A stretch of DNA of 33,289 nt, taken from Oscillospiraceae bacterium (GTDB taxonomy: Bacteria; Bacillota; Clostridia; Oscillospirales; UBA929). Of the stretch, positions 1,356-30,618 are shown in pieces. Numbering within the stretch: the stretch's first letter is position 1; each line of letters begins with the position of its first letter. The position numbers and the translations under genes are program-made. The stretch covers positions 1 to 33,289 of the forward strand of contig JAISVI010000022.1 in the NCBI GenBank assembly GCA_031271665.1, written 5' to 3'. The notes beneath the pieces were generated by a model. The model saw only the letters and a program-made list of their open reading frames with translations, was not told where the DNA came from and ran no database searches.

Positions 1356-1372
1356 GGGCGTCGCGCCCTACA
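1356..1372. repeat. Short hairpin module GGGCG-tcg-CGCCC-TACA overlapping the TgpA-like gene stop
   Basis: GGGCG(1356-1360) TCG CGCCC(1364-1368) followed by TACA, same design as the other hairpin+CCTAC modules. Confidence 0.6.
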
Positions 1373-3815
1373 ACCTTCCAAGGACGTATCTTTGAAGCAA
1401 CATCAGCATTTTCCCGCGTTTGGTGGCTCGCAGCTGCAACTCAAGAAACTCAATCGCTTTTACCGCGGCAAGCCGCTGCTTTTCGGTTGGCGGCAACCCG
1501 CCGTAGACGGCCCGGCCGCGTATCTCCGCGATGCAAAGTAGCGCGCCGTTATCGTTCAGCGCTCCCCCGCAGCGCACCGCAAACTCCTGCGGCGTTTCCG
1601 TCCGTACAGGCGTGAAATGTAAAAGGCGAAGCATAAGCAGATAACGCTTATATATCCGCGCCACTCCCCTTATCCCGTAAGCCGTCCATGCAAGCCAGCT
1701 TCGGAAACGGTTTCGGCGGACGCCGTTATACGCAATCCAGACAAAAGCGGCAATAAGCGCAATTGCAACCCAGACAGTCCCGTATTCCCAAATGGTTTCC
1801 CGCGTGTTGGGCGCATCGTCGCCGGAGGAGACGTCCGTGGGAGGACGGGTTGGCGGAGGAGTCGGATCCTCGGTCAACCCTTCATCTCCGATTATCGGGG
1901 TAAAGGTGCTTTCGGGTTCTTCCCCCCTGTAAACCTCGCGGAACGCCTGACCGAAACCCGCCGTAGGTTCGTAGGGAATCCAGCCGATGCCGCCATAATA
2001 AACCTCTACCCATGCGTGCGCCTGCGACGCTTTGGCGTAGTAAAAGCCTTGGTATTTCTCGGGGTTAAACACAAACCCCTCTACATACCGCGCGGGTATG
2101 CCCGCCATGCGGCACATAACGGTCATCGCCGTTGCGTAGTAAGTGCAGTAGCCGCGCCTTGCGTCGAACAGGAAGTAATCCACGAAATCACGCCCCGGCG
2201 GGGTTTCCGGCATTTCCGTGGAATACGGGAACTGCGACGAAAGGTATTGCTCGATTGCCTCGGCCTTCTGGCGCATCGTCTCGGCGCCCGCCGTCAGTTC
2301 CTCGGTAAGATCGTACACCCTTTGCGGCAGAGTGTCCGGAAGCTGTAAATATGTCTCCCAGAATCGAGACGCCGTTTCAGAGTCGAAGGCGGGCGGTCTG
2401 GACATCTGGTATATGGGGTAAAAACTATTGCTTAAATCAAGCAGCGCATCCCACTCTTCGGGCGAAAGGTTATATTTAAAGTAATGAAAATCGTATGTGT
2501 CTTCCTTTCGCTGCGTTTCGTCCGCTGTAACTGTCTGCGTCCAGTCGATGTTAAACGGTTCCTCCCACCCCTCCTCTGCTTCCTGCGGACGGTAAAAGCT
2601 TGCAAAGCCGGACGGGATAAAAACGCTTCTTGTGGCGATATCCCAATAATGGACGGTAGCGCTTCCCAAAGCGTACCATTCGTATCCGGGTTCGCGCGCC
2701 AAAATACCTTGCGCTTCTCTTCCTTGAAGGTCGTTAAGCATTAAAGGAAGCTGATAGCGTTCGGCTGTTATTCTATCCGTTTCGGACGCGGCTTCGCCGC
2801 CGAAGGTCATTCTGTACCGAGCCATTATGTCGTAGAAGGGATATTCGCCGCCGCTGAACCATTCGTCAGAAAACTCTGCGCTGTTCTGCGGCGCTTGTCG
2901 CCAGCTTCGCCCCGTGTATTCCGACGAGGAAAGCCCCTTAAGATAAAGCGGCTCGTCGGCCGAGAGGTAAAGCATTGTTATGTCAGATGGGTCAAACGCG
3001 CCGCCCAGTTCGCTCTCCACGCCGCCGAAACTCCCCACCGCGACCTTTGTCACGGAAAACAGCCCGATGTCAGAAGTAAGCGTCTCATCTCCGAAAAGCC
3101 GCGCGGCTGTGTCAACCAGCCACTGACCGCGCATGCTTAAATCCGACGGCATAAACAAAAAAGCAAGAAGCAGCAATACCGCGCATGACGGGGCCATGCT
3201 TAAAAGAAACTTGTACCTTTTCCCGCTGTGCCAATCGGTTTGCTTTGTCGCCACCAACAAGATGCAGAAAAGGAATCCCCACAGATTCCACTCCGGGTAC
3301 ACAAAGCCCGTAAACTGCATTCCCATAAATACGAAAACACCGACAAGCAGAACCATACCCACATTTGCGCGATAGCGCGTCAGCATAAACATTGCCGCCG
3401 AAAACAGGAACGATACCGCCGCCGCGACAATTGTCCGGTATGTCGCGAATCTTGGCGCGTTATGCTCGGTTGACCACGCAATCCAACCGAAAAATTCACC
3501 CATCCAGTCAACTACAGGCTTCATTCCGCCAAACACCGTAAAAAGCGCGACCGCGCCGATAAATATGACAACAATCTTGACTATCGTCTTAGATGAAAGG
3601 CGAACCCATGACAGTACGAAGAACAGCAGATGCCAAAAAAGAACAAAGAGCAAAACCGTCCATGCGGAAAACTCAATCACTATGGTAAATTTTAAGGTAC
3701 ACAAAAGCAAAAAGCTTATCGCGGCGGAAATAAGCGCGTCGGTGGCTTCCGGTTTGTGGCTGCCCCGATAAGCTCCCGCCCCGGCGTTATTTAATCCGCG
3801 GCTGTCAGGATTCAT
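1368..3815 (-). CDS. TgpA-like transglutaminase-domain membrane protein
   Basis: N-terminal multi-TM region, transglutaminase core 'RRGYCTYYATAMTVMCRMAGIPARYVEGF...HAWVEVYY', C-terminal TM; start at MNPDSRG preceded by GGAGGGG (ORF open to 3857); next to DUF58 and MoxR genes. Confidence 0.88.
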   Translation of the reverse strand: MNPDSRGLNNAGAGAYRGSHKPEATDALISAAISFLLLCTLKFTIVIEFSAWTVLLFVLFWHLLFFVLSWVRLSSKTIVKIVVIFIGAVALFTVFGGMKPVVDWMGEFFGWIAWSTEHNAPRFATYRTIVAAAVSFLFSAAMFMLTRYRANVGMVLLVGVFVFMGMQFTGFVYPEWNLWGFLFCILLVATKQTDWHSGKRYKFLLSMAPSCAVLLLLAFLFMPSDLSMRGQWLVDTAARLFGDETLTSDIGLFSVTKVAVGSFGGVESELGGAFDPSDITMLYLSADEPLYLKGLSSSEYTGRSWRQAPQNSAEFSDEWFSGGEYPFYDIMARYRMTFGGEAASETDRITAERYQLPLMLNDLQGREAQGILAREPGYEWYALGSATVHYWDIATRSVFIPSGFASFYRPQEAEEGWEEPFNIDWTQTVTADETQRKEDTYDFHYFKYNLSPEEWDALLDLSNSFYPIYQMSRPPAFDSETASRFWETYLQLPDTLPQRVYDLTEELTAGAETMRQKAEAIEQYLSSQFPYSTEMPETPPGRDFVDYFLFDARRGYCTYYATAMTVMCRMAGIPARYVEGFVFNPEKYQGFYYAKASQAHAWVEVYYGGIGWIPYEPTAGFGQAFREVYRGEEPESTFTPIIGDEGLTEDPTPPPTRPPTDVSSGDDAPNTRETIWEYGTVWVAIALIAAFVWIAYNGVRRNRFRSWLAWTAYGIRGVARIYKRYLLMLRLLHFTPVRTETPQEFAVRCGGALNDNGALLCIAEIRGRAVYGGLPPTEKQRLAAVKAIEFLELQLRATKRGKMLMLLQRYVLGRL

Positions 3816-5067
3816 TCCGCCCCTCCATTCCGGCGACAAGGTCGCCATTGGGGTCAAGCGGGAACATGCGGACGTGACCCTGATTGTCGGAGAGCGGCAG
3901 GTTCTCGCCGGGTTCTCGCCTTACACGGAAAATATCGGCGTACGCACCCTGCGGAAGCGCGTCGAAGAATTCGTCGTCCGTATTCTGACATGTGAAAACC
4001 ATTACATAATGCGCGCCTGCGGCAATTTGTGAATTGGACGCGGAGGCTATAAGCACACTTGGCGAGACTGTGGAATCGAAAGCTGCGGTCGCGCATAAAT
4101 GATGTATGCGGTCAAATCCCGCCGCCTCATACGCGGTAAGCGTAATCGGCACTTGCCCCGTGTCGCAAGTAAATGTAAGTTCCGCCCCGCATGTAAGCGC
4201 GAATCTGGACGCCGCAAGCGCCGCCTCGATAACCGTATCCTGACAGGTAAGCGGGTCGAGTGCCAAAAACGGCCGCAGATCGAGTACGCACAGCACCCGC
4301 AGTTTTGACTCGCGCGCCAGAAGCCGGGTTGTAAGTTCACGTCGGCGGGCAGTAAGCTTCCAATGTATACGCGCCATGGAATCGCCCGGAATATACGGCC
4401 TTGTCTCCGGAAGAGTTTCGTCCGAATCAAGCGCCGTAAGGCGCGGACGCTCTTTCTCGCTAAGGCGCGACAGCGAAAAGCGCGTAAGCGTATGAAGGCG
4501 CGGCCACACGGTAACGCGCATATCCTGCGTCAATCTTCGGCTTATGCGAAGCAGCCGGAACGGGTCGGAGATGCCCATACTTTTGGCGCTTAAAGTGTAC
4601 TCTCCGCGATGAGGGAAAACAATGCTTTGCTTGTGGATATGACTGCTGAAAGGAAGAACACTTACGTTATATTTCCCGGATATCTCCCCAAGTTCGGCAT
4701 ACGGCGCCGTTACAATCTGCACCCATGGAAGCGGGAAAGGGCCTTTGTTGAACACGGCGAAAGCCCACTCAACGCTTGCGCCCCTTTGGATATCGCGCGG
4801 GTCAAGCCTCTGCTGTATTTTCACGCACAACGCGGCGGCAATTACATGCACGATTGCGTATGCAAACGCAATCACACAAAGGCCAAGCAACGCAAAAGCA
4901 AGCGTCCCGCCAAAAAGAAGCACGAGAAGCACACTTCCAAGCATTATGCTGATAAAGGTAATTCGTGATCCGCGCAAATCGGAACGCGTTTTTTTTCGTT
5001 TGACCTTCACTGCCTGTCTTACGACCCGGTCTGCTTTAAGCGTTGTAGCCACGTACGACCTCGGCAA
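3805..5067 (-). CDS. DUF58 domain-containing protein
   Basis: Two N-terminal TMs, then 'ETRPYIPGDSMARIHWKLTARRRELTTRLLARE' typical of DUF58; start codon uncertain (overlaps moxR end). Confidence 0.87.
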   Translation of the reverse strand: MPRSYVATTLKADRVVRQAVKVKRKKTRSDLRGSRITFISIMLGSVLLVLLFGGTLAFALLGLCVIAFAYAIVHVIAAALCVKIQQRLDPRDIQRGASVEWAFAVFNKGPFPLPWVQIVTAPYAELGEISGKYNVSVLPFSSHIHKQSIVFPHRGEYTLSAKSMGISDPFRLLRISRRLTQDMRVTVWPRLHTLTRFSLSRLSEKERPRLTALDSDETLPETRPYIPGDSMARIHWKLTARRRELTTRLLARESKLRVLCVLDLRPFLALDPLTCQDTVIEAALAASRFALTCGAELTFTCDTGQVPITLTAYEAAGFDRIHHLCATAAFDSTVSPSVLIASASNSQIAAGAHYVMVFTCQNTDDEFFDALPQGAYADIFRVRREPGENLPLSDNQGHVRMFPLDPNGDLVAGMEGRNES

Positions 5068-6013
5068 TCGATATGCGTGACAGTATTTCAGAAATAACGT
5101 CGTACTGTCTTACGCGTCTTAGTCGCGCCTCTTGGCGAAGAATAAGGCGGTGCGCCAATACAGGTTCTGCCATAGCCTTAACGTCGTCCGGCAGCATATA
5201 GCCCCTTCCGCGGGAAAGGGCGCGCGCCTGGGCGGCGCGGAACAGCGCGAGCGAACCGCGCGGCGAAGCCCCAAGCTCGATATCCGGGTGTTCGCGTGTG
5301 GCGCGAACCACGTCCGTTATGTACTCGTAAAGGGTTTCTTCCACGCGGATACCCCGGACAAGCTGTTGAAGCGCCAGAATATGTTTTGCCTGTATAACGG
5401 GCGTAAGCTCGTCCAGAGGGTCGGATTCCTTAAACCTGCGCAGTATTCCCCCCTCTTCTTCCCTTGCGGGATAGCCAAGGGAAATACGCAAAAGGAAGCG
5501 GTCCATCTGCGCCTCCGGCAACGGGTAAGTCCCAACGTATTCAAGCGGGTTCTGTGTGGCTATGACCATAAAAGGTTCGCCGACGCTGTGTGTTATACCG
5601 TCAACCGTAACTTGGCTTTCCTGCATAACCTCAAGCAGACTGGCCTGCGTTTTCGGTGAGGTGCGGTTTATTTCGTCCGCGAGAATAAACGAACTCATTA
5701 CAAGCCCCGGCCTGTACTCAAACTCGTTTGTTTTGGGGTTGAACATGGAAAAGCCCGTAATGTCGGACGGCAATATGTCCGGGGTGAACTGGATACGCTT
5801 AAACGAGCATCCAACGCTTTTTGCCATCGCCTGCGCCAGAGAGGTTTTGCCGACGCCCGGCACGTCCTCGATAAGCACATGCCCCTCGCACAAAAGCGCG
5901 AGAAGCGCCATCTCGGCCGCCCCCTCCTTCCCCACCAGTACCTTCGCGATGTTCCCTACTACCACTTGGCAGACTTTTTGACCGTCGGTGTAATCCGATT
6001 CCCCTGCTTGCAT
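5036..6013 (-). CDS. MoxR-family AAA ATPase
   Basis: Walker A 'EDVPGVGKTSLAQAMAKS', 'ILADEINRTSPKTQASLLEVMQE', 'ATQNPLEYVGTYPLPEAQMDRF'; start preceded by AGGAGGG. Confidence 0.95.
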   Translation of the reverse strand: MQAGESDYTDGQKVCQVVVGNIAKVLVGKEGAAEMALLALLCEGHVLIEDVPGVGKTSLAQAMAKSVGCSFKRIQFTPDILPSDITGFSMFNPKTNEFEYRPGLVMSSFILADEINRTSPKTQASLLEVMQESQVTVDGITHSVGEPFMVIATQNPLEYVGTYPLPEAQMDRFLLRISLGYPAREEEGGILRRFKESDPLDELTPVIQAKHILALQQLVRGIRVEETLYEYITDVVRATREHPDIELGASPRGSLALFRAAQARALSRGRGYMLPDDVKAMAEPVLAHRLILRQEARLRRVRQYDVISEILSRISIAEVVRGYNA

Positions 6014-6071: not shown

Positions 6072-7760
6072 TTACAAGAGATTGATGTTGTTCAAACATT
6101 GTTCAACAATCTCATGTCGCCTAAAAGCAGCGGCAATTGTACGCCCATCCATATCTTTCAATGAATGACCAATAAAGCTAAGGCTATCATGCAGACGGCC
6201 AATTAAATAATTCTCACAATCGGCATAAAGTTTTTCTTTATGTTCTTCAAAAAACTCTTTAACTTCTTTAAAATTTTTATGCGATAGCTGGTCAAATTTT
6301 AAATTGAATTGCATCATTAATTTGCTTCCAATAATCATTGAAAGCAAATACTGACTATATTTACGCGTAGCTTGTACTTCTGAATTCGCAGAGAGTTTTC
6401 TTCGATTATTATCACAATAACGGAAGATTAAAACCGCCAATATCATTTGAGCGGCATTTAAATCCTTGAAAATAATATCATAATAATTATTAAAAAATTC
6501 GTTTTTCTTATGTTTTGCTAAATGAGGTCGGTTTCTCCAAATGGCTAACACAGACTCTGCTGCAACAGATGAAGGAATGATTTCAGACCAAATTTGATTA
6601 ATTTGGCTGTCTCTTTTCCGTTTATAAACATAACCTAATTGAGTGGCTCCTTGTTCCAATAATAGCTGTTCTTCTGAGTTTGATTTTAAATCCCGGAAAT
6701 CAACAGGGTTTTGGCTGTTGGTTGCCAAGGTAATATCTTGAACAACATTCTCATCAGAACTTACTTCATAAATACGCACAAGAACATCTACATCAGTAAA
6801 ATCAATGTCAGGGTTATCCTCCAATGTATGAAAAATTGTTTTACAGGTCTGCCCCCCATTGATAATTTGTATATTATCGGCTTTTAAAATCCAATCCTTG
6901 TCCTGTAAATAGTTCGCGGAAAATTTCTCGCAGACAATGGTAATACCATTGTTGAAGAAAAAGAAATTATTCCGATTATCTTCTTGCAAGAGGGTGTTGC
7001 GAATCCCTTCATTCACAAGGTTTCTTCCAAGAAATTTACGGATATTCTTCTCAAGAAGCTTATCACCCTCTTCTTTCATAAGCCGATGGACTTCTTTGAC
7101 ACTTAGTCTGCCAAGTATAACACTTTTATAATTAAAATCTTCGCGGATAGATTTTCCCTTTAGCTGAAGAGATGCGTTTATACCCTTTATTTTCATAGTG
7201 CGCGCTATAATATTTTCGTGATTATAATAATCAAATACGACTTGCTTTTGAGTTCCAAAATTATTGTCTATGTGTTGTTGTGCTGAATTGTCCCATTTAA
7301 TGCCATTGTTTATACATACAAACGTAACAAAAGGAATGTATCCGTCTAAAAGATATGACCGGATATCGGTTAAAACGGTTTTGCTGTTTTCATTAAGATC
7401 TATGTGTTTGTTAGGATCAAAAACACAACTGATTGCATTTATGGCCTTTACAATTGCATTTTCAGGATAATTTGCATCCTTTGAAAGATCCCTAGTATAT
7501 TTTGTTTGAAAAAGAATAACCGTTAATTGTGAATCTTCGGCCTCAGCTATAAACGCTGCATCAAATCCCCCGTCGGCACCCCCATCAGTAATGTATTGAA
7601 GTGCGTCGGAAACCTCTATCTCCAAATATGAAGCCACAGCCAATAATAGGAAAGCTTTTGATTTCTTTCTTTCCACGTCGGCGATGTCTGAAAAGAACTC
7701 GGGGTTTTCCTCGACAATATTGTCAACCCGATTATCAACAAGCTGTTTTGCAATGTTCAT
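6072..7760 (-). CDS. AIPR-family (abortive infection phage resistance) protein with putative N-terminal Mrr-like nuclease motif
   Basis: 'NNFFFFNNGITIVCEKF...IQIINGGQTCKTIFH' typical of AIPR; N-terminal 'GGADGGFDAAFIAEAEDSQLTVILFQTKY' resembles the Mrr-type D...QxK site; clearly lower GC than flanks; GGGAG upstream of ATG. Confidence 0.85.
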   Translation of the reverse strand: MNIAKQLVDNRVDNIVEENPEFFSDIADVERKKSKAFLLLAVASYLEIEVSDALQYITDGGADGGFDAAFIAEAEDSQLTVILFQTKYTRDLSKDANYPENAIVKAINAISCVFDPNKHIDLNENSKTVLTDIRSYLLDGYIPFVTFVCINNGIKWDNSAQQHIDNNFGTQKQVVFDYYNHENIIARTMKIKGINASLQLKGKSIREDFNYKSVILGRLSVKEVHRLMKEEGDKLLEKNIRKFLGRNLVNEGIRNTLLQEDNRNNFFFFNNGITIVCEKFSANYLQDKDWILKADNIQIINGGQTCKTIFHTLEDNPDIDFTDVDVLVRIYEVSSDENVVQDITLATNSQNPVDFRDLKSNSEEQLLLEQGATQLGYVYKRKRDSQINQIWSEIIPSSVAAESVLAIWRNRPHLAKHKKNEFFNNYYDIIFKDLNAAQMILAVLIFRYCDNNRRKLSANSEVQATRKYSQYLLSMIIGSKLMMQFNLKFDQLSHKNFKEVKEFFEEHKEKLYADCENYLIGRLHDSLSFIGHSLKDMDGRTIAAAFRRHEIVEQCLNNINLL

Positions 7761-14931: not shown

Positions 14932-15093
14932 GGGCGAACGCTGTTCGCCCCTACGGACGATTGCTATCGTCCCCTACGCGCCCGTGTCCCACATACGCCG
15001 CCGGGATGCGCGGGCGGCCAATGGCCGCCCCTACAAATCATCCCCAAAATTGTCAATTGTTCATTGTCAATTGTCAATTGCCATCGTCCCCTA
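14932..15093. repeat. Composite interspersed repeat: three hairpin+CCTAC modules plus an AATTGTCAATTGTTCATTGTCAATT module, ending at the polC stop
   Basis: Hairpins GGGCGAAC-gct-GTTCGCCC (14932-14950), GGACGAT-tgct-ATCGTCC (14955-14972), GGGCGGCCA-a-TGGCCGCCC (15012-15030), each followed by (C)CTAC; 25-bp core at 15048-15072 is the exact reverse complement of 24609-24633. Confidence 0.85.
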
Positions 15094-24590: not shown

Positions 24591-24608
24591 CCGCTCACCC
24601 CTGATGTT

Positions 24609-24717
24609 AATTGACAATGAACAATTGACAATTGACAATTGTTGAAATCGCGCCATGCGTGACAATCTTATTGAAAAACCGGCAACGCTTTGAGAAGAAT
24701 AATTGTCAATTATCAAG
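24609..24717. repeat. MITE-like interspersed element with AATTGACAATT-type ends
   Basis: AATTGACAATGAACAATTGACAATTGACAATTGTT at the left, inverted AATAATTGTCAATTATCAA at the right; 25-bp core shared with 15048-15072 (reverse complement). Confidence 0.75.
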
Positions 24718-27051
24718 CAGTTTTCCTATCAGTTCGTGGCCCTCTTCAATAAGGATGCCGGACTCTTCGCATGACGCTTCGCTGAAGCCGCGCGGTATTG
24801 GTTTGCGTTTGGCGCGGCTGTCGTAAAGCAGGAACGGCACCGGTTCGCCGTTGTGTCCGCGCGTCTCGGTAAGGGTAAGATGGTCGCTTAGTATTAAAAG
24901 GCGGTACGGCTTACCCGCGCGGTCAAGCCCCTGTTTCAGACGGGCTATGGCGCGGCTGTCAAGCCACTCGATGGCTTGCAGCTTGCCTTCCAGGTCGCCC
25001 GCGTGCGTACACTCGTCCGGCGCCTCGATATGCAGAACGGCGAAGTCAAAGCCGCTGTTAAGCCCGTGAAGCACGGCGTCCGTTTTCCCCTCGAAGTCGG
25101 TGTCAAGCTCGCCCGTAGCGCCGGGGATAATAACGCGTTCCATTCCGGCAAGCGCGCCGATTCCGCGCACAAGCGGCACCGCGCTTACAACAAAGCCGCG
25201 CTTTTTATACTTGTCTTTAAGCGGGGGAAGAAAAGCCGCAGTCCCCTCTGCCCAGAACCATATGCCGTTCGCGGGCGGCTTGCCCTCCGCGCGGCGCTTT
25301 TCATTTATCTCATGCCTGTCAAGGAACACATGCGCAATGTGCATAAGTGTGTTAAGCGAGTCTGCGGGGCCGTATCTGGGCAGCAGCGGCCCGATAGCCT
25401 CGCCAAGGTGGTCGTGCGGCGGCGCGGCAAGCAAGCCCGTAACGTCAACACCTTGCTGTACGGCGATTTGACGGAATGACGCCGCGGGGTAAACCGATAC
25501 CCTGTAGTACCCGGCGGCGGCGGCAAATTCCGGGTCTTCAAGCAAATCCCGCATAAGGGCAAGGGCGCTTTCTCCGTCAACCGAACCGCCGCTGTGTGAA
25601 AGTATCCGCTTTTCGTGATAGGGCATATCCCCGTCTTCAAGGCTTATAAGGTTACAGCGGTACGCCGCGTCGCCCGGCATAAGCGGTACGTCCGCCCCCG
25701 CCGCCTCCAGCGGGGCGCGCCCGGTATAGCATTTGCGCGGATCATAGCCGCAGACGCTTAAAATCGCGGTGTCGCTTCCCGCCGGAACGCCCTCGGGGAC
25801 TGTGCGCAAGCATCCGATAACACTCTGCGCGGCCAGTTCGTCCATCACCGGGATGTTCGCCGCCTGAAGCGGGGTGCGCCAGTCAAGCTCTTTGACCGGG
25901 TGGTCGGCCATGCCGTCGCCGATAACGATGCAGTATTTTCTTTTAAGGGGCTTGCTTAACACCCGATACCCGAGAATAGCCGCCGCCGCGACGCCTGCGC
26001 CGACAAGCGCGCTTATCCACGGGCTATCCACCGCGAATTCAGCAAATACCGGGATAAAGTTCATGCCGTTAAAGGCCATATGCGCAAATATCGGAACAAG
26101 GATATTGTCACAGCGGTTATAAATCCACCCAAGAAATACGCCAAGGGCAAAGGCGTACGTCACCTGGATCGGCCCGGCGTGCAGTATCCCGAACAGCGCC
26201 GACGCAATCAGAATCGACGGCCATTTGCGCATAAAGCGGCTAAGCCGCTTCTGCACAAGGCCGCGCATCATAAATTCCTCCAGAAGCGGGGCGAAAACCA
26301 CAATGCTTAAGACCGAAAGCCAACCCGGCCCCGAGGTCAAAAGATTATCCATAAGATCGTTGAGATTTGAAAGAAAGTCCGGCAGTAACCGCTGGATAAT
26401 CCGGTCAAGCCCCGAAAGCGCCCCGCTTACAAGCAGCCAAAGCCCGGCGGAAGCAATCATCCCGACAAACGCCAGATCCAACGCCCGAATCCCCGGATGC
26501 GCCGATGTAAGGGCGTGTTTCTTATATTTTATAAAGAAAGCCGCGAAAACCAAAAACAAGGATACCTGTATGAAGACATTCAGATAGAAGCTCCATTCCA
26601 CAAGCATCGCCATAATCCTGTTATAAAGCTCGTCAAAACCCATGCCGTAGTCAATTGACGGGACAACGGCAATAAAAAGCACAAGTATCACGATAATACT
26701 AAGCAGCGTGCTAACGCCCAAATACACAAAGAACGGCCAAATCGCGCCGAAAAACTTTCTTGTGTTTGTGCGTTTTTTTGCTCTCACCGGCGCGGCAGAC
26801 CCGTAGTAAACTCCCTGCGCGGGCGCAGCCATATGCTGCGGCACAGGCGCGGGAATCGGTGCGGATACGGATGTCTGCGGCGCTGTCTTAATGCGCATAT
26901 ATTCCGCGCGCCAAGCGTCGCGATAGCTTTCCCACTCGGACGCGCTCATGCGGTCGCGGTGCGCCTGCCACTGCTGCAAGGTCATGTTTGGGTGAAGGGT
27001 CATCCAAGGTTCGTATACAACTGCGGAACTGTCCGCGCGGTTATCATCCAA
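24706..27051 (-). CDS. Fusion protein: N-terminal CPBP-family intramembrane metalloprotease + C-terminal 2,3-bisphosphoglycerate-independent (ApgM-type) phosphoglycerate mutase
   Basis: CPBP motifs 'LLEEFMMRGLVQKRL', 'FGILHAG', 'AHMAFNGMNF' in an 8-TM region; uninterrupted into 'KYCIVIGDGMADHP', 'PAGSDTAILSVCGYDP', 'HIEAPDECTHAGDLEGKLQAIEWLD', 'LSDHLTL'. Probable TTG start preceded by AGGGAGGTG (ORF open to 27102). Confidence 0.88.
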   Translation of the reverse strand: MDDNRADSSAVVYEPWMTLHPNMTLQQWQAHRDRMSASEWESYRDAWRAEYMRIKTAPQTSVSAPIPAPVPQHMAAPAQGVYYGSAAPVRAKKRTNTRKFFGAIWPFFVYLGVSTLLSIIVILVLFIAVVPSIDYGMGFDELYNRIMAMLVEWSFYLNVFIQVSLFLVFAAFFIKYKKHALTSAHPGIRALDLAFVGMIASAGLWLLVSGALSGLDRIIQRLLPDFLSNLNDLMDNLLTSGPGWLSVLSIVVFAPLLEEFMMRGLVQKRLSRFMRKWPSILIASALFGILHAGPIQVTYAFALGVFLGWIYNRCDNILVPIFAHMAFNGMNFIPVFAEFAVDSPWISALVGAGVAAAAILGYRVLSKPLKRKYCIVIGDGMADHPVKELDWRTPLQAANIPVMDELAAQSVIGCLRTVPEGVPAGSDTAILSVCGYDPRKCYTGRAPLEAAGADVPLMPGDAAYRCNLISLEDGDMPYHEKRILSHSGGSVDGESALALMRDLLEDPEFAAAAGYYRVSVYPAASFRQIAVQQGVDVTGLLAAPPHDHLGEAIGPLLPRYGPADSLNTLMHIAHVFLDRHEINEKRRAEGKPPANGIWFWAEGTAAFLPPLKDKYKKRGFVVSAVPLVRGIGALAGMERVIIPGATGELDTDFEGKTDAVLHGLNSGFDFAVLHIEAPDECTHAGDLEGKLQAIEWLDSRAIARLKQGLDRAGKPYRLLILSDHLTLTETRGHNGEPVPFLLYDSRAKRKPIPRGFSEASCEESGILIEEGHELIGKLLDN

Positions 27052-27125
27052 ACAAAACACCTCCCTGCTAAGTCCATGGCATTGTATCACACCGCGATAC
27101 AAGAATCAAGTAAAACGCGCGGTTA

Positions 27126-28250: not shown

Positions 28251-28292
28251 AGAAAAAAGAGGCCGCGTCCAACTGGCGGCCTCCCCTTTTTT
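28251..28292 (-). terminator. Rho-independent terminator after the ClpE/ClpC-type gene
   Basis: Stem GAGGCCGC/GCGGCCTC (28259-28266/28276-28283) with A6 on the plus strand left side, giving a U6 tract in the minus-strand transcript. Confidence 0.88.
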
Positions 28293-30618
28293 ACAGCAGT
28301 CGAATCTCGATTTTTGCCTCTCCCTTTTCGTCTTTCGCGGCGGAAAGGTGAACCACGGTCGGAGAGGAATTATAGTTACGCACCATCTCGGCCGCAAGCG
28401 GGTCTTCGATATCCTTCTGGATAAGGCGGCGCAGATTCCTCGCGCCGTATTTCAGGGAATAGGATTTATCTACAAGGTATTCTGTGACGTCGCCGCCGTA
28501 CTTCAGCGTCATTCCCCTTTTTTCAAGAACGGCGGAAAGGTCGCCAAGCATGATGCCGCAAATCGCGGCAAAATCGACCTTTTCAAGCGCGCGGAAGGCG
28601 ACAATCTCGTCAACGCGGTTTATAAACTCGGGGCGCATGATATCCGAAAGCGCCTTCATGGCGCGCTCGCGGCTCATTTCGGTAAGCGTCCTGTTAAAGC
28701 CCACCGCCCCGCTTGCCTTATCGCCGCTTCCGGCGTTGGAGGTCATAATGACAATCGTGTTTTCAAAATTCACGCGCCGTCCATGCGCGTCGGTAATATG
28801 TCCGTCATCCAAAATCTGCAAAAGCACGTTAAGCACGTCGGGGTGCGCCTTTTCGATTTCATCGAAAAGTACAACGCTGTACGGGCGGCGGCGTATCTTC
28901 TCGGTAAGCTGTCCGGCTTCGTCATAGCCGACGTATCCGGGGGGCGAACCGATTATGCGGGACACCGCGTGCTTTTCCATAAACTCGGACATGTCAAGGC
29001 GTATAAGGGATTCCGGCGTGTCGAACAAATCCTGGGCAAGCAGCTTAACAAGCTCGGTCTTGCCAACGCCCGTCGGCCCGGTGAAGATAAACGACACGGG
29101 TTTCTGCTTCGGCGAAATCCCGACGCGGTTGCGCTTAATCGCGGCGGCCACGGCGGCAACAGCCTTGTCCTGGCCGATAAGGCGGCTTTTAAGGCGGTTT
29201 TCAAGCTGTTCAAGCCGCTGAAACTCCTGCTCGCGGATTTTTGACGCGGGTATCTTCGTCCACTGCTCGATAACGTTTGCAAGGTTTTCAACGCTTAACT
29301 CCGGCGCGCCGTCCTTCATAACTTCCTCAAGCTTGCCGACAAGGACAAGCTCTTCGCTTTTAAGCTCGGCAAGCCGGGCGTAGGAACTGTTGTCCGCGGC
29401 GTTCATAAGCGCCTCGCGCTCGCCGCGCACCTTGTCAATCTTCCCGCGAAGCGCGTCGCCTTGCTGGATTACCGTGCTTTTAAGGTTAAGGTCGGAACAT
29501 GCCTCGTCGATAAGGTCAATGGCCTTGTCCGGCAGGAAGCGGTCGGTGATATACCGTTCGCTTAACGCCACGGCTTGACGCGCTACCTCGCGCGGAATCC
29601 TTACGCCGTGGAACTGCTCGTAATAATGGGCGATGCCCGCGATTATCTCTTCGGATTCGGCAATTGACGGCTCGGCCACCGTGACGGTCTGAAACCGGCG
29701 TTCAAGCGCCGCGTCCTTTTCTATGTGCTTTCTGTATTCGGAGAAGGTCGTCGCGCCGATTACCTGTATCTCTCCGCGCGAAAGCGCGGGTTTAAGGATA
29801 TTCGCGGCGTTCATAGAACCTTCCGCGTCCCCCGCGCCGACAAGGTTATGCACCTCGTCTATGACAAGTATGATATTGCCAAGCCGCCGTATCTCCTCGA
29901 TAAGTCCCTTCATGCGGCTTTCAAACTGGCCGCGGAACTGTGTGCCCGCGACAAGAGCCGTAAGGTCAAGCAGGTATACCTCTTTGCTTAAAAGCTTCAT
30001 CGGGGCGGCTCCGTCAACGATGCGTTGGGCAAGCCCCTCGGCAATGGCGGTTTTTCCGACGCCCGGCTCGCCGATAAGGCATGGGTTATTCTTCTGGCGG
30101 CGGTTCAGAATTTGCACGACGCGCTCGATCTCCGACGCGCGCCCTACAATACGGTCAAGCTTCCCCTCTTTGGCCTTTTGCGTAAGGGAAATACAGTAGT
30201 TTTCCAAAAACTTGCGCTTGGGCGCGCTGTTTTCGCGGCGCTCGGGGTCACGTCCGGGACGCGTAGGCGGCGGATTTTCGGGCTGTTCATGGGGCTGCAT
30301 CGAAAAGAGCTTGTTGATGAACGGAAAGGTGGCGGTCTTGCCGTCCTCTTCCTCGTCGCCGGAGTCGTCGCCGTCAATCGCGGCAAGCCCCAAAAGCTCT
30401 TGGGGATTGTTAAGCGCCTCGGTCATGTCTTTAGTAAGGGCGTCAAGCTCGTCGTCGCTGATGCCCATTCTTTTGATAAGGTCGTTCATGGGCTGGATAC
30501 CCAATTCACGCGCGCACCTAAGGCAAAGCCCCTCGCTTGAGGTTTTGCCGTTTTCCAGTTTGGTTAAAAACACAACAGCCACGTTTTCCTTACAGCGGCT
30601 GCAAATAGCGGGTTGCAT
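28291..30618 (-). CDS. Clp AAA+ ATPase with N-terminal zinc ribbon (ClpE/ClpC type)
   Basis: N-terminal 'CSRCKENVAV...LCLRCARELG' (two CxxC); Walker A 'GEPGVGKTAIAEG' and 'GPTGVGKTELVKL'; 'GSPPGYVGYDEAGQLTEKIRRRPYSVVLFDEIEKAHPDV'. Confidence 0.93.
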   Translation of the reverse strand: MQPAICSRCKENVAVVFLTKLENGKTSSEGLCLRCARELGIQPMNDLIKRMGISDDELDALTKDMTEALNNPQELLGLAAIDGDDSGDEEEDGKTATFPFINKLFSMQPHEQPENPPPTRPGRDPERRENSAPKRKFLENYCISLTQKAKEGKLDRIVGRASEIERVVQILNRRQKNNPCLIGEPGVGKTAIAEGLAQRIVDGAAPMKLLSKEVYLLDLTALVAGTQFRGQFESRMKGLIEEIRRLGNIILVIDEVHNLVGAGDAEGSMNAANILKPALSRGEIQVIGATTFSEYRKHIEKDAALERRFQTVTVAEPSIAESEEIIAGIAHYYEQFHGVRIPREVARQAVALSERYITDRFLPDKAIDLIDEACSDLNLKSTVIQQGDALRGKIDKVRGEREALMNAADNSSYARLAELKSEELVLVGKLEEVMKDGAPELSVENLANVIEQWTKIPASKIREQEFQRLEQLENRLKSRLIGQDKAVAAVAAAIKRNRVGISPKQKPVSFIFTGPTGVGKTELVKLLAQDLFDTPESLIRLDMSEFMEKHAVSRIIGSPPGYVGYDEAGQLTEKIRRRPYSVVLFDEIEKAHPDVLNVLLQILDDGHITDAHGRRVNFENTIVIMTSNAGSGDKASGAVGFNRTLTEMSRERAMKALSDIMRPEFINRVDEIVAFRALEKVDFAAICGIMLGDLSAVLEKRGMTLKYGGDVTEYLVDKSYSLKYGARNLRRLIQKDIEDPLAAEMVRNYNSSPTVVHLSAAKDEKGEAKIEIRLL

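Follow-up and report, generated by a model that had tools for sequence, protein, structure and literature searches.

When one open frame in an Oscillospiraceae genome runs from a CPBP-type intramembrane protease straight into an ApgM-type enzyme, two questions arise: whether the two genes are truly fused in the cell, and in which pathway an enzyme tethered in this way would work. The window analyzed here, 33,289 bases, is the whole of contig C138 of a 2.03-Mb genome in 168 contigs that is 94% complete. An earlier note on this DNA had described the locus as a membrane protease tethering a glycolytic enzyme.

Results and Discussion

One Open Frame Encodes Both Halves

The listing of open reading frames in the window contains a frame at 24706..27102 (-) without a stop between the two domains, and the fused ORF within it (Table 1) is real in the assembly. 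The earlier claim of a single ORF joining a CPBP protease to an ApgM-type enzyme stands: the Pfam matches (Rce1-like, 80.6 bits; PhosphMutase, 136.6; Metalloenzyme, 118.0) all exceed their cut-offs, and every motif that had been quoted is present, with KYCIVIGDGMADHP at residues 372-385 of the fused protein. TTG at 27051 is the likely start, which yields the same extent of the gene as in the earlier note; its sequence context includes a strong Shine-Dalgarno-like stretch and, with a spacing of ~30 bases to the start, a promoter-like site whose second hexamer is preceded by TG. At the other end, despite the repeat that overlaps the stop codon, the C-terminus has a normal length. The fused protein is presumably expressed.

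Table 1. Features of the fused gene and its surroundings (coordinates in the window; strand in brackets)
Feature	Coordinates	Description
Fused ORF	24706..27051 (-)	781 aa; TTG start (27051), TGA stop
Sigma-70 promoter-like site	27081..27109 (-)	TTGATT-17-TACAAT, TG before second hexamer; consensus match only
Shine-Dalgarno-like GGGAGGTG	27058..27065 (-)	6 nt 5' of TTG start; read from sequence
CPBP/Rce1-like half, residues 1-366	25954..27051 (-)	PF02517, 80.6 bits (cut-off 22.4)
CPBP motif 1, EEFMMR, residues 258-263	26263..26280 (-)	From alignment
CPBP motif 2, FGILH, residues 287-291	26179..26193 (-)	From alignment
CPBP motif HMAFN, residues 324-328	26068..26082 (-)	From alignment
Junction, residues 366-371	25939..25956 (-)	AGA-AAA-TAC (RKY) in place of relatives' ATG-AAA-TAY (MKY)
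ApgM-family half, residues 371-781	24709..25941 (-)	Read as ThrB2-like, probable alternative homoserine kinase; TIGR00306 score
Dispersed repeat, inverted ends, AATTGACAATTGAC units	24605..24716 (.)	Between pyrH and fusion; edge overlaps the fusion's stop codon

By score and motifs, the N-terminal half is a member of PF02517. Its glutamic-protease motifs (EExxxR, FxxxH, and HxxxN) are all intact, and E258, E259, R263, F287, H291, H324, and N328 are invariant when it is aligned to 19 CPBP proteins that stand alone in genomes of the same family; this half probably keeps an activity of its own. Hydropathy and AlphaFold both predict a membrane domain of several helices, the last of them at residues 344-366; the eight transmembrane helices of the earlier description are, in detail, a prediction. 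Modeled alone because a mixed alignment gave a poor model of it, the half is helical (pLDDT 80), and its best PDB match is SpdC (SagB-SpdC), at an E of 0.013 (prob 1.00); a PDB sequence search with the CPBP half returned no match.

The C-terminal half belongs by score to the ApgM family (TIGR00306, 408.4 bits against a cut-off of 320, positions 1-402 of 403). Across 131 relatives, 52 alignment columns reach at least 95% conservation, and this half keeps 51 of them; the metal and phospho-Ser positions retained include D379, S426, D679, H683, D723, H724, and H733. The AlphaFold model (pLDDT ~96) matches PDB 2zkt in Foldseek with an E of 2.9e-30. Against TIGR02535 this half scores 415.6 bits, below the cut-off of 446.3. 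Of nine stand-alone relatives compared with the same profile, eight fall short too, and one of these is encoded near ThrC; we therefore describe it as ApgM-family and probably ThrB2-like in function, and not as a TIGR02535 member.

The Junction Coincides with the Natural Ends of Both Proteins

In most stand-alone relatives of the enzyme, a Shine-Dalgarno sequence precedes a start of ATG, GTG, or TTG and then AAR-TAY, giving a protein that opens with MKY; at the junction this start is replaced (Table 1). Stand-alone CPBP relatives finish where the junction falls, their final hydrophobic helix being followed by a few polar residues. In the models a tether of ~6 residues would connect the last membrane helix, which stops near residue 366, to the enzyme's first strand, which starts at 372. 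The placement of the ApgM domain in the cytosol, as proposed earlier, holds up under the positive-inside rule, by which the domain would lie on the cytosolic face of the membrane. Close to the junction, GTG 25962 is the one ordinary start codon, and no Shine-Dalgarno sequence precedes it; an internal start that yields a separate mutase would have to use this codon and is unlikely. The lost start codon, together with the lack of a Shine-Dalgarno sequence before GTG 25962, makes it unlikely that two genes, intact in other respects, were joined simply through an overlooked stop codon.

The main rival to a real fusion is an artefact of assembly or consensus: in the cell the genes would be separate, or would be neighbors divided by a stop and a start codon. 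An error of this kind is possible since the fusion was seen in no other genome, and the fragmented, incomplete assembly adds to the concern, as do a TAA in another frame directly at the junction (CCT TAA AAG) and the mobile-looking repeat at the 3' end of the gene. Against this, the join coincides exactly with the natural limits of the two proteins and leaves no start codon behind, a result that random chimeras would rarely give; the window holds no repeat longer than 13 bases that matches the junction; and codon-position composition is coding-like on either side. On balance we regard an artefact as unlikely, though it is an explanation to be taken seriously.

The Fusion Is Confined to One Genome

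The earlier note had suggested looking for the same architecture in related genomes, and it did not turn up there: among the matches listed for 396 genomes of the same order and 392 of the same class, none spans both halves, and a scan of GTDB r220 contigs that included CPBP-half patterns found only stand-alone enzymes among the best 80 loci, records nearest to the window's genome possibly being left out of that scan. No CPBP relative occurs near the enzyme gene within the fetched flanks of these 80 related loci, and a linkage of CPBP and ApgM genes predating the fusion was not found in relatives. A genome of the same genus (G015) encodes a 333-aa CPBP protein on contig C9 and the enzyme on C26. 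Long open frames upstream of the enzyme at three loci (L009, 730 aa; L119; L129), considered as possible further fusions, contain no CPBP sequence. The absence of the fusion from the relatives searched makes it private to this one, fragmented genome, and marks it as a curiosity rather than a new system.

This distribution bears on the idea that the halves are functionally coupled, with the protease half controlling the enzyme, through release by self-cleavage or signal-triggered degradation, or scaffolding it. Both halves keep their catalytic residues; SpdC, to which the CPBP half shows its best structural similarity, is a CPBP-type partner of an enzyme in the SagB-SpdC complex; and a curated family of ABC-permease/CPBP fusions exists (NF041647). 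However, the fusion was seen in no relative and a CPBP gene near the enzyme at none of the 80 loci, and neither a sensor domain nor a cleavage site was seen in the fused protein. Coupling therefore appears very improbable, and we give still less credence to its specific form, in which membrane protease and threonine-pathway kinase make up a genuine regulatory unit and the protease releases or degrades the kinase on a membrane signal. The two halves would then have no special joint function.

A Probable Role of the ApgM Half in Threonine Synthesis

The genome encodes a separate, full-length gpmI on contig C16 (659.5 bits, cut-off 330.65), so glycolysis has no need of the fused protein; the fused ApgM half is the sole PF10143 match, and a second ApgM copy, which the earlier note had thought worth looking for alongside gpmI, is absent. 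Threonine synthase (ThrC) lies on C70 and homoserine dehydrogenase on C77, and the profile search for ThrB gave no hit over cut-off, either here or across the family's 19 genomes. The strongest, weak ThrB match in the genome, considered as a second homoserine kinase, reads from its sequence as an ispE-like kinase ORF; a homologous gene beside ThrB2 at locus L094 scores as ispE. Over the order's 396 genomes, an ApgM-type gene without ThrB occurs in 184, ThrB without an ApgM-type gene in 87, both in 29, and neither in 96, in a cross-table that rests on the matches listed per genome and may include false absences; the two genes anti-correlate (odds ratio 0.17, Fisher P 1e-13, a statistic that ignores relatedness). 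In one genome that is ~95% complete (G004), ThrC and homoserine dehydrogenase occur without ThrB or an ApgM-type gene, and there may be a further homoserine kinase.

Where the surroundings of the gene in relatives are informative, they are those of amino-acid metabolism. In three genomes of the family (G008, G009, and G011) homoserine dehydrogenase and an aspartokinase-like match share a contig with the ApgM gene, at ~10 kb or less from it. The closest relatives of the fused enzyme rarely adjoin threonine genes, and some more distant ones co-localize with them; within its subclade the frequent company is an Lrp/AsnC regulator, an aminotransferase, and ispE. At six Oscillospiraceae loci (L094, L096, L097, L101, L102, and L103) an aminotransferase of class I/II often precedes the stand-alone enzyme, in most cases together with an Lrp/AsnC regulator. 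At several of them a GHMP kinase comes after the enzyme (ispE in L094), and this arrangement may offer a clue to the substrate.

A group named ThrB2 or TIGR02535 has been predicted to be an alternative homoserine kinase whose occurrence complements that of ThrB; in Bacteroidetes and many Firmicutes its genes form clusters with asd, hom, or thrC, and mutants of its best-studied member, BT2402, require threonine (PMC9026213, PMC7311316). A thrB mutant of E. coli was reportedly not rescued by BT2402 (PMC7311316), so that homoserine kinase is still a predicted activity of the group.

A second, membrane-bound phosphoglycerate mutase, which would place a glycolytic step at the membrane, would account for the score above the TIGR00306 apgM cut-off, for archaeal cofactor-independent mutases as the closest solved structures, and for the conserved metal and Ser positions. 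It sits poorly with the full-length gpmI, with a ThrC and a homoserine dehydrogenase left without ThrB, and with the context of relatives, and we judge it improbable. The glycolytic part of the earlier reading is therefore set aside, the more so as this half falls in a ThrB2/TIGR02535-like group. Going by gene content, this genome offers no candidate homoserine kinase other than the ApgM half, and the best reading is that this half functions like ThrB2, most likely with homoserine as its substrate.

Neighborhood of the Fused Gene

In the window the fusion is flanked by pyrH and a VWA_CoxE gene, with no threonine genes alongside. The downstream order pyrH-frr-uppS-cdsA-dxr is kept across the family, and the genes upstream of pyrH vary, which puts the fusion at a locally variable site. 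The intergenic AATTGACAATTGAC repeat, possibly a MITE-like element, occurs twice in the window, the second copy at 15047-15080; the copy at 24605 folds as a hairpin (z -3.3).

Adjoining the VWA_CoxE protein is a ClpC-like AAA protein (28291-30618 (-)) with an N-terminal, zinc-ribbon-like CxxC...CxxC segment. A row of MoxR-type AAA ATPase, DUF58, and transglutaminase-core genes, a common and poorly understood set, occupies 1368-6013 (-). An AIPR family protein (6072-7760 (-); PF10592, 172 bits), a family linked to abortive phage infection, lies amid housekeeping genes.

Proposed Origin and Role

We consider it reasonably probable that a lineage-specific fusion anchors a kinase of the threonine pathway on the cytosolic side of the membrane and that it probably adds little in the way of new function. 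Two once-separate genes, a CPBP gene whose product ended just past its last helix and a thrB2-like ApgM-family gene, would have been joined at their natural boundaries, the latter losing its start codon in the process. A single message from the CPBP promoter, translated from the TTG start, would yield a membrane protein whose ApgM domain, on the cytosolic side, most likely phosphorylates homoserine for ThrC by a metal-dependent mechanism through a phospho-Ser (Ser426), while the separate gpmI serves glycolysis. The fusion most likely arose by chance and was retained because the enzyme half still works.

If real, the fusion is a new domain architecture that puts the sole candidate homoserine kinase on the membrane with no separate copy left, and it provides a natural test of whether an anchored ThrB2-like enzyme works. 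Of wider value is a correction: ApgM-type genes in Clostridia that lack ThrB and have gpmI should be taken for probable threonine-pathway enzymes and not for glycolytic mutases.

Comparison with Known Systems

Each half resembles an established family. Like CPBP/Rce1-like glutamic intramembrane proteases (PF02517), the fused protein has the EExxxR, FxxxH, and HxxxN motifs in a predicted helical membrane domain; stand-alone relatives stop after the last helix, whereas the fusion adds a C-terminal enzyme domain. With archaeal-type cofactor-independent phosphoglycerate mutases (ApgM; TIGR00306; PDB 2zkt, 3kd8, and 3idd) the C-terminal half shares full-length homology and the metal and phospho-Ser positions, but identity to 2zkt is ~28%, a membrane domain has been added N-terminally, and the cell already has gpmI. 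ABC-permease/CPBP fusions (NF041647) likewise carry CPBP and another domain in one chain; there CPBP is C-terminal to a permease, whereas here it is N-terminal to a soluble enzyme, and the fused protein scores 75 against that family's cut-off of 435. The ThrB2/TIGR02535 proteins, represented by BT2402, share with the fusion an ApgM-like sequence present as a single copy in a genome without ThrB but with Hom and ThrC; they are stand-alone, whereas the enzyme described here follows a membrane protein in the same chain and scores below the TIGR02535 cut-off.
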